From an uncultured Bacteroidota bacterium (GTDB lineage: Bacteria; Bacteroidota; Bacteroidia; B-17B0; Aurantibacillaceae): 64,000 bases of DNA. The stretch covers positions 1 to 64,000 of the forward strand of contig CAILKE010000040.1 of the NCBI GenBank assembly GCA_903834765.1. Direction: 5' to 3'. A model generated the notes under the pieces. The model saw nothing but the letters and a program-made list of their open reading frames with translations, was not told the origin of the DNA and did no database searches. Position numbers and translations under genes: made by a program. Shown here piece after piece: positions 1-7,974 of the stretch (within the stretch, counting starts at the first letter, position 1; each line of letters begins with the position of its first letter).

Positions 1-3000
1 CAACTACTTACTATACACCTACAACAAACAATTCTGTTTTATATGCATATTCAACGAGTTCAAATCCAAGTTTTTGGACTTCCAGTCCATTTCCAAACAC
101 TTCTACAAGTAGACCAAACATTACTTTTGCTGGTCAAGTTGTAACTCAAGGTGCTGGTTCATTAGCTTGGCAATGGAACCCTGGTTCTATTAATACTAAT
201 ACAGCAGTTGTAAACCCTGTTAATTCAGGTACAGCAGCTGTTACGAATGTTTATACGGTATCGGTAACAAATCCAACAACAACATGTTCTAATTCAGCAA
301 CAGTATCAGTAGTAGTAAATCCTTTACCAACTGCACCAGTAGTTGCTAATTCAATTCAATGTGGATTAGCTGTTCCTACAGCATCGGTTTCTGGAGGAAC
401 GTCTTACAATTGGTATGCATCACCAACATCAACAACTGTATTGCAATCAGGAGCAAGTAGTACTTATACAACAGCAATTAATAGTACTACCAATTTCTAC
501 GTATCTTCATACAATGGTACTTGCGAAAGTGTTAGGTCTTTATTAACAGTAACGGTAAATACAGCAGATAATATTACAGCTTCTGCTAGTTCTTCGTTAG
601 CTTGTCCTGGATCACCTATATTATTATCGTCTACTCAAGGTACAGTAAACATATATACGTTTACATGGACTGCTACACCAGCCACTGGTAGTGGCATACC
701 TACTTCGATAGCAGGTAATACAACTAACGTGACGCCAACAATTGCAGGAACTTATGTGTACCAAGTATTTGGCACGGATGGTCTTTGTTCAACAACATCT
801 TCAGTTTCAGTTACATTAAATAATGCGCCAGTAGTTTTAGCTAGTGCAAGTCCTACAGTAGTTTGTTCAACAGGTTCTGTTAATTTGAATGCGGCGTCTG
901 TGGTTACTGGCACAAACACTATAGGTGCAGGATCATTAACTACAACGAGTGAACCAAATCCATATTATACAACCTATTGGGGTAATAAAAACCAATATTT
1001 AATTACGGCATCAGAATTAACTGCTGCAGGTTATTATGCCGGTAACATCACAAGTTTAGGATTTGATTTATTAGGTGTAACAACAACGTTACAACTAACA
1101 AACTTTAATATCTCTATTAAATCTTCAACTTTGACCGCAATGAGTGCATGGGAAACGGGTTTAACATCGGTATATTCAAACCCTTCTTATTCATTAGTTC
1201 CAAACACAATTAATACCCACGTGTTCTCTACTCCATTTGTTTGGGATGGCGTATCAAATATTGTGATTGAAACATGTTTTAATAATGCTGGATGGAATGG
1301 CTCTCAAACTATCAGATATACAACAACAAGTTTTGTTTCATCATTATATTATCGTGCTGATGACCCAGCTGTTTGTTCAGCACCATTAGCTCCAACTACT
1401 AGCTCTAATCGCCCTAATTTTATTATCGGAGGATTATTAGTTGCTCAATCTGCAGGTTCTTTAGCTTGGCAATGGAACCCTGGCGCTATTAATACTAATA
1501 CAGCAGTTGTAAACCCTGTTAATTCAGGTACAGCAGCTGTTACTCAAAACTATACAGTAACAGCAACTGATCCAGTTACAACTTGTTCAAATTCGGCAGT
1601 AGTAGCAGTAGTAGTAAATCCTTTACCAACTGCACCAGTAGTTGCAAATTCTACACAATGTGGAGTGGGAGTTCCTACAGCTTCAGTTTCAGGTGGAACA
1701 ACTTATAATTGGTATAATGCTGCCACAAGTGGAACTTTAGTTCAAACCGGAACTAGTTCTACTTATACATCAGCTGTTAATAGTACTACAACTTATTATG
1801 TATCATCATACGATGGTACATGTGAAGGAACAAGATCGATGATAACAGTCTCTGTTAACATACCTGATGCTGTAACAGCAACTATAGGAACTGCATCTGT
1901 TTGTCCTAACACAACGGTTAGTTTATTAGCTACAAATACAGGTACTACAAATACATATTCATATACTTGGACTGGTGCTCCAGTAATTGGCAGTGGCATA
2001 GCGACATCTGTTGCAGGTACTTCTGTAGTAGTAACTCCATCATTGCCTGGAAATTATATTTATACAGTAACTGCAATAGATGGAATTTGTACAACAATTG
2101 GAACAACAACATTAAATGTATTCCAAGCATTAACTACACCTCCAATTGCATCAGGGTCTCCAAATCCAGTTTGTGTAGGAAGTAGTTCCGTTGAATTATC
2201 TGCTTCTTTTGGTAGCACAGTAATGCCTACTTATACAACTCCGCCTTCGGTAGTTAATCCATTTGCAGACGAAGATTTAGGTAACATTACATTTGGTTCT
2301 TTAAACAACACTTCTGCAATTAACTCATTATCTGGTTCTATAGGAACTGCAGCTGGGACAGCAGGAGATTATTCAGACTTTACCGCATTCGGGCCTTATA
2401 CTTATAACTTAGGTAGTACTTATACATTAAGCTTAAGTTCATTACAAGCAACAAGCGCTTACGGTAATGCCTTTGGTTTATATATTGATTACAATAAGAA
2501 TGGTGTATTTACCGATGCAGGAGAAGCAGTATATGTGTCACCTATTACTACGTTAGGAGCTCATACTGAAACTGCTAGTATTACAATACCTGCAAGTGCG
2601 ACTCCTGGAATCACAAGATTAAGAGTAATTGTAAACGAAGGCTTAGTAACTGGGCCAACTATGTCTGTAGACTACGGTGAATACGAAGAATACTCATTAA
2701 ATCTTATTCCTATCGTTACATACAATTGGACTGATGGTTCTTCTTCAATAGGTACATCAAGTACATTGACAGTATCTCCTGCAGTAAATACAACATATAG
2801 TTATATTGTAACTGACTTGAATAGTTGTTCGCTAAGCTCTGCTCCTGTTACCATAACAGTAAATCCTTTACCTGTTATTAATGCAACAGCTCCAAGTTCT
2901 ACAATATGTGCTAACACTTCGGCTACATTAAGTGCAACTGGTGCCACAACTTATACGTGGGCCCCAGTAGGAGGTAATGCAGCGTCAGCAGTTGTAACGC

Positions 3001-4232
3001 CGACTGCAAATACAACTTATACAGTAACAGGTTCTTTATTAGGTTGTATTTCTACAAATACTATTTCACTAGCAACAATTGCCTCACCAACCTTAAATGT
3101 TGTTTCTTCTTCAACATCAGCAGTATGTGCTGGAACATCAGCTACGATAACAACATCAGGTACAGCAACTAGTTTTACTTGGTCTCCAGCTGTTAGTACA
3201 ACATCAACGGCGGTTGTTTCTCCAACAGCTAATGCTACTTATACTGTAGTCGGTTTCGATGCAGGGTGTTCAACTACTGAAACTATTTCTATAGCAGTAA
3301 CAGCAAATCCAACGATTAATTTAGCTGCTACAAATACTTTAATTTGTATAGGCTCTACAACTAGTTCAACAATTAACGCTACGGGTACCGCAACAAGTTT
3401 TACATGGACTCCAGCTGTTAGTTCAACTTCATCAGCGGTGGTTTCTCCTACGGTAACAGAAACATATACGGTTGTTGGTTTAGCTTCTGGATGTACAACT
3501 ACAACTACAATAACAGTTAATGTGGCTAATACTCCTTCAGTTACTGCAATTGCTCCTAATAATGTGATATGTGCTGGATCAACAGTAACGTTAACATCTA
3601 CAGGTACTGCAACTAATTACACATGGTCTCCAGTTGGAGGTAACGGCACAAGCGCTATTGTTTCTCCAACAAGCGCTACATCTTATACATTATTAGGTGA
3701 AGCAGCTGGATGTACAAACTCTAGTGTTGTTACTTTAACGGTTTCTGCATTACCGATAGTAACTGCTGTATCAAGTAGTTCGGCAATTTGTAAAGGTGAA
3801 AGCGCTGTTTTAACAGCATCAACATCTGCTACATCTTATACTTGGTCAAATTCAGCAAACACAGTATCAACCACTGTTACTCCAACTATTACGTCTAATT
3901 ACACGGTAACAGTTAGTAACGGAACATGTACAGCTAATGCAACTGTATCGGTAACTGTAAATCCTTGTATCGGAATCGAAGAATTATCTTCAAATGGTAT
4001 CAGTATTTATCCAAACCCTACAATTGATAAATTAAACATTGCAATTAATGCTGATTTAGTATCCATCACTTCAGTATCTATTTATGATGCTTTAGGGAAA
4101 TTAGTAATTACTGAAAAATTGAATACCGAATTAACGACAATTAGAACTTCTAATTTAGATGCTGGTGTTTATTTTGTAAAAATTACTACTAACAATAGAG
4201 AAATCAAAATTGGAAAATTAGTTAAACAATAG
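1..4232 (+). CDS. Giant repetitive T9SS-secreted surface protein, 5' end outside the window
   Basis: The frame is open from base 3, so the N-terminus and signal peptide lie upstream; 1409 residues are visible. The first ~710 residues are two tandem copies of a ~433-residue unit rich in Ser, Thr, Ala and Val, containing Ig-like strands and an AWQWNPG motif. Residues ~745-900 resemble a GEVED domain (DYNKNG and GEYEEYSLNL near its end). Residues ~960-1320 hold five Ig-like repeats of ~74 residues, each with a Cys near the start, a central YTW or FTW, and a second Cys. The last ~75 residues are a T9SS sorting domain (IYPNPTIDKLNI, then DAGVYFVKI, ending GKLVKQ). The family is exported across the outer membrane and held at the surface or released. 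I infer an adhesin-like role; no catalytic domain is visible. Confidence 0.85.
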   Translation, partial: TTYYTPTTNNSVLYAYSTSSNPSFWTSSPFPNTSTSRPNITFAGQVVTQGAGSLAWQWNPGSINTNTAVVNPVNSGTAAVTNVYTVSVTNPTTTCSNSATVSVVVNPLPTAPVVANSIQCGLAVPTASVSGGTSYNWYASPTSTTVLQSGASSTYTTAINSTTNFYVSSYNGTCESVRSLLTVTVNTADNITASASSSLACPGSPILLSSTQGTVNIYTFTWTATPATGSGIPTSIAGNTTNVTPTIAGTYVYQVFGTDGLCSTTSSVSVTLNNAPVVLASASPTVVCSTGSVNLNAASVVTGTNTIGAGSLTTTSEPNPYYTTYWGNKNQYLITASELTAAGYYAGNITSLGFDLLGVTTTLQLTNFNISIKSSTLTAMSAWETGLTSVYSNPSYSLVPNTINTHVFSTPFVWDGVSNIVIETCFNNAGWNGSQTIRYTTTSFVSSLYYRADDPAVCSAPLAPTTSSNRPNFIIGGLLVAQSAGSLAWQWNPGAINTNTAVVNPVNSGTAAVTQNYTVTATDPVTTCSNSAVVAVVVNPLPTAPVVANSTQCGVGVPTASVSGGTTYNWYNAATSGTLVQTGTSSTYTSAVNSTTTYYVSSYDGTCEGTRSMITVSVNIPDAVTATIGTASVCPNTTVSLLATNTGTTNTYSYTWTGAPVIGSGIATSVAGTSVVVTPSLPGNYIYTVTAIDGICTTIGTTTLNVFQALTTPPIASGSPNPVCVGSSSVELSASFGSTVMPTYTTPPSVVNPFADEDLGNITFGSLNNTSAINSLSGSIGTAAGTAGDYSDFTAFGPYTYNLGSTYTLSLSSLQATSAYGNAFGLYIDYNKNGVFTDAGEAVYVSPITTLGAHTETASITIPASATPGITRLRVIVNEGLVTGPTMSVDYGEYEEYSLNLIPIVTYNWTDGSSSIGTSSTLTVSPAVNTTYSYIVTDLNSCSLSSAPVTITVNPLPVINATAPSSTICANTSATLSATGATTYTWAPVGGNAASAVVTPTANTTYTVTGSLLGCISTNTISLATIASPTLNVVSSSTSAVCAGTSATITTSGTATSFTWSPAVSTTSTAVVSPTANATYTVVGFDAGCSTTETISIAVTANPTINLAATNTLICIGSTTSSTINATGTATSFTWTPAVSSTSSAVVSPTVTETYTVVGLASGCTTTTTITVNVANTPSVTAIAPNNVICAGSTVTLTSTGTATNYTWSPVGGNGTSAIVSPTSATSYTLLGEAAGCTNSSVVTLTVSALPIVTAVSSSSAICKGESAVLTASTSATSYTWSNSANTVSTTVTPTITSNYTVTVSNGTCTANATVSVTVNPCIGIEELSSNGISIYPNPTIDKLNIAINADLVSITSVSIYDALGKLVITEKLNTELTTIRTSNLDAGVYFVKITTNNREIKIGKLVKQ

Positions 4233-6338: not shown

Positions 6339-6905
6339 TTATTTTTTCACGCGTTCAACGTAAGTCGCTGTTCGAGTATCAACCTTAACTAGGTCGCCTT
6401 CATTACAAAACAAAGGAACACTAACAACAGCACCAGTATCTAGCGTAGCGGGTTTTAATGTATTTGTAGCTGTATCGCCCTTTATACCTGGCTCTGCGTA
6501 TGCAATTGTACAAGTTACAAAAGTTGGTGCTTCAGCTAAAATTACATTATCTCCATCTTGAAAAGATACTTTTACTTCCATTTCTTCTTTTAAAAACTGG
6601 AAACTATCTCCAAATAATTTGATAGGAACATATACTTGCTCGAACGTTTCTTTATCCATTACTACGGCAAATTCGCCTTCTGCATAAATATATTGCATTT
6701 GCTTATATTCTACACGCACCAATTCCACAGCTTCTCCGCTTCTAAAGCGATTTTCTATTTGTTTGCCATTAATTAAATTACGCATTTTGCCTTGGTAAAA
6801 TGCACGTAAATTACCAGGTGTACGGTGTTGCCACTCTGTTACCTGCATAATTTCACCATTAAACTTAATAATTGATCCGATGTTAATGTCGCCTGTATCT
6901 GCCAT
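6339..6905 (-). CDS. efp: Translation elongation factor P with Asn at the modified loop position
   Basis: EF-P binds ribosomes stalled on polyproline stretches and promotes peptide bond formation. The 188-residue product spans the N-terminal KOW-like domain and two OB domains, with the conserved YAEPGIKGDTATN and C-terminal KVDTRTATYVERVKK. The domain I loop reads HRTPGNLRAFYQ. Aligned to E. coli PGKGQAF, the residue normally carrying the modification (Lys34 there, Arg32 in Pseudomonas) is Asn32 here. No beta-lysylation or rhamnosylation at that position is therefore possible. I believe other Bacteroidota share this variant, but cannot confirm it from the window. The codon for Asn32 is at 6810-6812. 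Confidence 0.95.
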   Translation of the reverse strand: MADTGDINIGSIIKFNGEIMQVTEWQHRTPGNLRAFYQGKMRNLINGKQIENRFRSGEAVELVRVEYKQMQYIYAEGEFAVVMDKETFEQVYVPIKLFGDSFQFLKEEMEVKVSFQDGDNVILAEAPTFVTCTIAYAEPGIKGDTATNTLKPATLDTGAVVSVPLFCNEGDLVKVDTRTATYVERVKK

Positions 6906-6923
6906 GATTTTTCTTTTATTTTT

Positions 6924-6970
6924 TAACCGCAGAGAACGCAGAGGTTTAGCGCCGAGTTCATAGAGGTTTT
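6924..6970. repeat. CTCTGCG-type intergenic repeat between efp and accA
   Basis: Read on the minus strand, the segment contains CCTCTATGAACTCGGCG followed by CCTCTGCGTTCTCTGCGG, so the CTCTGCG unit recurs at a ~10-base step. It lies in the 106-base gap between accA and efp and encodes nothing. Similar CTCTGCG strings occur as dispersed intergenic repeats in many environmental genomes. Assignment to such a family is from memory and not tested. Confidence 0.5.
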
Positions 6971-7011: not shown

Positions 7012-7974
7012 CTATGCTTCTAATTCGTGGGTAACACCCATATTGCTGAACTTTTCAATACGAGCATCAATACGCGCTTCTGGCGTTTGTTTTTTTAGTG
7101 TTGCTAAATGTTTTAATATTTCTGCTTTTACAGTTGCAAACATTTCTTGCGGATTATTATGAACGCCTCCAAGTGGTTCTCTGATAATACCATCAATTAA
7201 CCCATTAGCACTCATATCGTCAGCCGTTAATTTTAAGGCAGCTGCAGCAGTTTCTTTAAAATTCCAACTACGCCATAAAATGGATGAACATGATTCAGGT
7301 GAAATAACCGAATACCAAGTGTTTTCAAGCATCAATACTTTATCGCCAATGCCAATACCTAAGGCACCGCCACTAGCGCCTTCGCCAATTATTATACAAA
7401 TTACAGGCACTTTTAATTGAGCCATTTCTAATAAATTACGTGCAATGGCCTCACCTTGTCCTCGTTCTTCTGCTTCTAATCCAGGATAAGCGCCGGGAGT
7501 ATCAATAAAAGTAACAATAGGTTTATTAAATTTTTCTGCCATTTTCATTAAACGCAATGCCTTACGATACCCTTCTGGATTAGCCATTCCGAAGCGTCTA
7601 ATTTGGCGCATCTTTGTGTTAATTCCTTTTTGTTGGCCGATAAACATAACAGTTTGTCCATCAATATCTCCAAATCCGCCAACCATAGCTTTGTCATCAC
7701 CTACGGTTCTATCACCATGTAATTCAATAAATGAGCTATTTGATACAGCATCGATATAAGCAAGAGTATAAGGCCTTTCAGGATGACGGCTTACTTGAAC
7801 ACGTTGCCAAGGAGTTAATTTAGAAAATATTTCTTCTCGTTTGGATAGTATTTTTGCTTCCAACTCAGCAATAGAACTACTCATATCTACGTTACTTTTT
7901 TCGGCAACGCTTTTAAGTTTTTCTAATTCTTCTGCAAGTTCCTGAATTGGCTTTTCAAAATCAAGATAAATCAT
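7012..7974 (-). CDS. accA: Acetyl-CoA carboxylase carboxyltransferase subunit alpha
   Basis: AccA and AccD form the carboxyltransferase that moves the carboxyl group from biotin to acetyl-CoA, giving malonyl-CoA for fatty acid synthesis. The 320-residue protein has the normal length. It has the helical N-terminal extension ([16 protein letters not shown]) and the crotonase-like carboxyltransferase fold, including the [19 protein letters not shown] and [11 protein letters not shown] segments that shape the acyl-CoA site. No accD lies in the window. The gene has its own upstream -7 box, and efp follows 106 bases downstream on the same strand. Confidence 0.97.

Follow-up and report, generated by a model that had tools for sequence, protein, structure and literature searches.

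The efp locus and its loop

The window, a stretch of 64,000 nucleotides from an uncultured Bacteroidota bacterium, carries at positions 6339–6905 of the reverse strand an efp gene of 188 codons with an ATG start, encoding elongation factor P (EF-P) of an Asn-tip type, as named from Pfam, NCBIfam, and phmmer matches. The translation reads ...EWQHRTPGNLRAFYQ..., matches all three EF-P domains of Pfam (KOW and two OB), and scores 221.2 bits against the NCBIfam model TIGR00038 (efp; cut-off 185.8); judged by its sequence, the protein belongs to the EF-P family. An accA-like gene, named by sequence reading, lies just upstream on the same strand (7012–7974), and such an ORF adjoins the Asn-type efp in 17 of 17 whole-genome loci of the window genus and family (L001, L003–L013, L031–L035).

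Two further features of the window were recorded. The segment CTCTGCGTTCTCTGCGGTTAAAA at 6921–6943 of the reverse strand, just upstream of efp, occurs once in the window and in none of 100 shuffles; among 276 loci it is seen only in two, which occupy the same place as the window locus. We take it to resemble a dispersed intergenic repeat of other genomes. At 441–4232 of the forward strand there is a repetitive, Thr/Ser-rich ORF of 1263 amino acids, whose C-terminal segment is presumably similar to a putative type IX secretion sorting domain.

The loop TPGNLRA of EF-P spans residues 29–35 (6801–6821, reverse strand). Its tip is Asn32 (codon AAT, 6810–6812, same strand), corresponding to Lys34 in E. 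coli numbering, followed at tip +2 by a conserved basic residue, Arg34 (6804–6806, same strand). The translation and the AAT codon bear out the preliminary description, which had read the loop as TPGNLRAF with Asn32 at 6810–6812. When the protein is aligned by phmmer to the solved EF-P 1yby, Asn32 falls on the Lys of PGKG; in an AlphaFold2 model built from an alignment of 35 sequences (mean pLDDT 87.8, pTM 0.63), residues 29–35 are placed between beta strands 18–28 and 36–43. Here, the window protein shows Asn32 at the position of the tip Lys of lysine-type, EpmA-modified EF-Ps, reads PGN where Arg-type EF-Ps have a tip Arg and no Pro at −2, and scores 104 bits against the EfpL model NF003392, whose cut-off is 216. 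The domain III motif GDT is present as Gly143-Asp144-Thr145 (6471–6479, reverse strand), with Gly143 and Asp144 invariant in alignment A1. In an excerpt of PMC11611912, the GDT loop of E. coli EF-P touches the E-site codon, with Asp145 and Thr146 making the base contacts.

Comparison of distinct proteins reveals the loop as a module of three residues. Its recurrence in 131 distinct proteins also places the Asn loop well beyond coincidence. Among 131 Asn-type proteins, the triplet starting at the tip is NLR in 124, NKR in six, and NKH in one, so that position +2 is always basic and Gly is never found at +1; each of the 73 distinct Lys loops (from 15 GDT-less paralogs, 12 proteins with KGG, and 46 canonical ones) has Gly at +1, both sets being non-random, with many rows from the window genus and family. 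The Lys loops were sorted by PGKG, and the remainder consisted of three fragments, with no PGK followed by another letter among them. Hence, a basic residue stands either at the tip (Lys loops) or two places on (Asn loops). The motif of domain III is GDT in 120 of the 131 Asn-type proteins and GNT in ten, one being cut short; all full-length EF-Ps read carry GDT, GNT, GDS, or GNS, except the second-copy paralog described below. According to an excerpt of PMC6544042, the K34N variant of E. coli EF-P is inactive, and thus the remainder of the loop must matter.

Spread of the Asn loop and the Lys-tip paralog

An EF-P match was found in 187 of the 198 genomes of the class sample and in none of the other eleven searched (G017, at 97% completeness, and ten more). 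The Asn loop is present in 97 of the 198: 91 match the DNA pattern PGNxxAF[YF]Q, each with a match inside its EF-P (G126 and G157 have one additional match each elsewhere in the genome), and six were read in family f16, where an NKR loop has a different tail. The Asn copy is the only EF-P match found in 87 of these 97 genomes, an upper count, since some genomes are incomplete. At least two EF-P matches are seen in ten genomes, all of them Asn genomes (Fisher p = 0.0016, uncorrected for kinship). Outside the class, 64 of 149 genomes of the phylum sample match PGNLRAFYQ, PGNLRAFVQ, or PGNLHAFFQ, by DNA pattern only and with most matches supplied by family f73; seven other matches with different letters, such as PGNAGAFFQ, were left out of the count. 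Among named relatives, the nearest are MAGs of uncultured Bacteroidota.

Asn tips have been printed before, as 2.2% of the EF-Ps of organisms that lack yjeA/yjeK (Bailly and de Crecy-Lagard, 2010, PMC2821294) and again, with Pro at −2 in 100%, in 2019 (Volkwein, PMC6544042), both as given in excerpts. These proteins have Asn at position 34, as the window type does, and the 2019 ones have Pro at 32; most likely, they are the same group as the window type. The excerpts of the two accounts hold no phylum, conserved Arg, Lys return, or GDT-less paralog. In the open-licence literature searched, we found no description of the Asn-X-Arg module as a trait shared within a group of Bacteroidota, of a repeated return of Lys in an Asn clade, or of an EF-P without GDT. 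The preliminary description, which had singled out the Asn tip as a departure from the modified Lys or Arg, was right about the missing tip residues and in doubting the known enzymes, as neither EpmA nor EarP was found (see below); however, the loop is ordinary, occurring in about half of the class genomes sampled, and Asn tips are already in print. It is a group feature, partly known, and no oddity of the source genome.

The source assembly (3.63 Mb, 79 contigs, 99.99% complete, 2.1% contamination) holds a second efp on contig C3 (11263–11808), 46% identical to the window EF-P, with the loop DHITPGKGNAIY, TPGKGNAI. It passes the TIGR00038 cut-off (194.9 bits vs 185.8) and, like the window EF-P, scores well under the cut-off for EfpL. 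This Lys paralog is found in 12 of 12 other genomes of the genus searched, in one of them with an in-frame stop (a TAA in L029 of the draft genome G012, due to either decay or an assembly error). Both copies co-occur in 12 of 13 different genus genomes, and the second copy is therefore not put down to contamination; the remaining genome, G001 (92% complete), has the Lys copy only. In a sample of 395 class genomes, with the source genome as the only member of its genus, the loop pattern of the Lys paralog is seen in six: the source genome, two of family f31 (G042, G118), and three of the 11 of sister genus g10. The segment DHITPGKGNAIYS is identical in all 15 copies compared, and the GDT motif is absent from 17 of 17 intact copies read (14, and three from g10; the broken copy was not scored).

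The preliminary description had allowed for a paralog with the standard loop being the functional EF-P of this genome. A second efp with TPGKGNAI does exist, but it lacks GDT, and in 87 of the 97 Asn genomes no second copy was found; for these two reasons, it leaves the question unsettled. Probably, the second EF-P, present in the window genus and a few relatives, is an accessory or specialized factor and no replacement.

Within the genus, the Asn copy has a median dN/dS of 0.052 (40 of 55 pairs usable) and the Lys copy one of 0.086 (36 of 55), with 15 and 19 pairs, respectively, being unusable; these medians are rough because many dS values exceed 1 or are saturated. Both copies are under purifying selection.

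Trees, modification enzymes, and polyproline demand

The trees, for which the loop columns were left out, gather all Asn proteins into a single well supported group. Nested in it are Lys proteins, namely the GDT-less paralog, those of families f53 and f10/f46, and an f41 paralog that in G092 and G187 is a tandem neighbor of the Asn copy. A careful tree (81 rows; L003, L055, and L020 dropped; only eight rows with other loops kept) needs five tip changes. For the Asn label, 200 bootstrap trees likewise give five at both the 5th and the 95th percentile, and three changes are forced when only well supported branches are considered. These trees are read most simply as a single gain of Asn with four returns to Lys, and this recurrence of Lys could be a sign that the Asn form works weakly.

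Asn as one derived clade alone is rejected on the careful tree (AU test, p = 2.7e-7). On this tree, the test likewise rejects the idea that all Lys copies of the Asn clade arose once (AU p = 0.0022), while on a quick tree of 120 rows a single Lys clade is not rejected (p = 0.233); nor is one origin for the in-place Lys groups of f53 and f10/f46 (p = 0.137). Family f53 has both an Asn EF-P (L137) and in-place Lys EF-Ps reading TMPGKGGAFYQ (L144, L145), each being the sole EF-P match; since the two kinds lie apart on the trees, replacement by transfer is possible.

The preliminary description had held that an Asn tip excludes the known Lys and Arg modifications, which stands, the tip being neither, and had proposed a search for the modifying enzymes. 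No genome of the 198, including the source genome, has an EpmA match above the TIGR00462 cut-off (two of 14 controls do); sub-threshold matches occur in 196, and we take the long ORFs at about 240 bits to be lysyl-tRNA synthetase. EarP was found in none of the 198 class genomes, and the 14 controls of the same search also gave none; as a positive control, the same model found EarP at E = 5.2e-78 in G561 (an acidobacterial genome, that of L245), which encodes an Arg-type EF-P. YmfI is a member of a large reductase family.

Arg-tip EF-Ps (QTGRGASN-like) were seen in eight Bacteroidia genomes, five of family f29 (L150–L152, L154, L158) and three of f2 (L079, L109, L021). None of the eight has EarP above the cut-off, G040 giving one weak match of 14.9 bits. 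Three f29 genomes have an Arg copy and an Asn copy together; on the tree, the Arg copies of f29 fall in the canonical group.

A gene similar to deoxyhypusine synthase (DHS) lies on contig C31 of the source genome (L249, 6836–7819, forward strand), adjoining GSCFA and LemA genes on a contig other than that of efp. It scores 139.9 bits against PF01916 and at most 114.6 bits against the NCBIfam DHS and homospermidine models, whose cut-offs are at least 304. The protein has a WGK segment, presumably the catalytic motif. DHS-like matches occur in 143 of the 198 class genomes: in 93/97 Asn genomes, 8/8 with an in-place Lys, 34/82 with other EF-Ps (loops read in part only), and 8/11 without EF-P, uncorrected for kinship. 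The Asn genomes without a match are G188, G025, and G209 (97–100% completeness) and G134 (65%). Asn has no amine of the kind that DHS modifies. That a DHS-like gene accompanies the Asn clade could hint at a linked chemistry, and PMC6544042 mentions DHS-like genes among prokaryotes whose EF-P tip is Lys or Asn. As a tip modifier, DHS is only weakened as a candidate, by the scores far under the cut-offs and by the three near-complete Asn genomes without a match.

The motif PPPNVTG, which we take to be that of ValS, was counted as an exact DNA match irrespective of frame and gene. It is found in 187 of the 198 genomes (reversed-pattern control: two of 198), in 93 of the 97 Asn genomes, and in 84 of the 87 with a sole Asn EF-P; four of the 11 genomes without it are Asn genomes (G050, G062, G106, G118). 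Judged by this one Pro-Pro-Pro motif, the demand for polyproline synthesis appears to be retained.

Explanations and their meaning

We consider it probable, from the sequence evidence, that the efp of the window encodes a genuine, functional EF-P belonging to a large group within the Bacteroidota, that its tip is unmodified by known enzymes, and that it makes use of Arg34. The view of a working EF-P is based on the family membership, wide and mostly single-copy occurrence, purifying selection, retained GDT, lack of EpmA and EarP matches, and polyproline demand. The modified tip Lys would have been replaced long ago by the loop Pro-Gly-Asn-Leu/Lys-Arg/His, whose tip the known enzymes would leave unmodified; the Asn EF-P would rescue polyproline-stalled ribosomes without tip modification, and Arg34, the always-basic residue at +2, may contact the P-site tRNA end, as the modified Lys34 does in E. 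coli. With a basic residue at +2 in 131/131 distinct Asn loops, the most convincing account is still that the protein works without modification or by way of Arg34.

In the genus itself, the task may be divided, although we suggest this only tentatively: an Asn-tip EF-P with GDT would read the E-site codon and need no modified Lys, while its complement, a Lys-tip EF-P without the codon-reading motif, may act on stalled ribosomes regardless of the codon. The Asn-X-Arg loop would then be self-sufficient, would serve many members of the phylum as their sole EF-P loop, and could revert to Lys-Gly-X.

It is unlikely that the Lys paralog is the main EF-P of the genus, with the Asn copy in another or lesser role. 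The paralog is present in the source genome and all 12 others searched, it has an invariant segment and is under purifying selection, and G001 shows this copy only; however, every intact copy read lacks GDT, the Asn copy occurs in 12/13 genus genomes and has the lower median dN/dS, and in most Asn genomes no other EF-P was found. We give a similarly low probability to a novel modification of Arg34 or Asn32 by some enzyme widespread in the clade, perhaps one linked to the DHS-like gene. The basic residue kept in all loops read, the DHS-like gene of the source genome and its counterparts in most Asn genomes, and the published co-occurrence with Lys or Asn tips are consistent with it, but the DHS-like protein scores far under the cut-offs, its gene neighbors are GSCFA and LemA on a contig apart from efp, three Asn genomes at 97–100% completeness have no match, and EarP and EpmA were not found. 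Very improbable is a decayed Asn EF-P that contributes little while ABC-F or YebC-type factors stand in for it: the inactivity of E. coli K34N, the Lys copies that arose several times in the Asn clade on the trees, and the Arg copy beside the Asn copy in three f29 genomes could be read in this way, but the Asn EF-P is under purifying selection, its loop is near-invariant across families, and in 87 sampled genomes no other EF-P was found.

The window EF-P, working in our preferred explanation without tip modification by known enzymes, shares with the lysine-type, EpmA-modified EF-P of E. coli the three-domain match, the seven-residue loop, Pro-Gly before the tip, and GDT in domain III; it differs in having Asn followed by Leu-Arg, where the E. 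coli type has Gly-X, and in a source genome without an EpmA match. With the Arg-type, EarP-dependent EF-P it shares an arginine in the loop, but at tip +2, with Pro kept at −2 and EarP not found. EfpL (YeiP), as given in an excerpt of PMC11611912, is a further EF-P relative unmodified at the tip and occurs in genomes with two EF-P-like proteins; unlike in both EF-Ps of the source genome, its tip is Arg and its loop is longer, and both score far below its cut-off.

According to PMC6544042, known enzymes for EF-P modification are missing from more than half of bacteria. A natural EF-P that lies outside the known tip modifications, is often the sole copy found, and has a three-residue module that switches when the tip is Lys offers a clean way to learn the loop's own role. 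With the GDT-less paralog, tip function could be told apart from codon reading.
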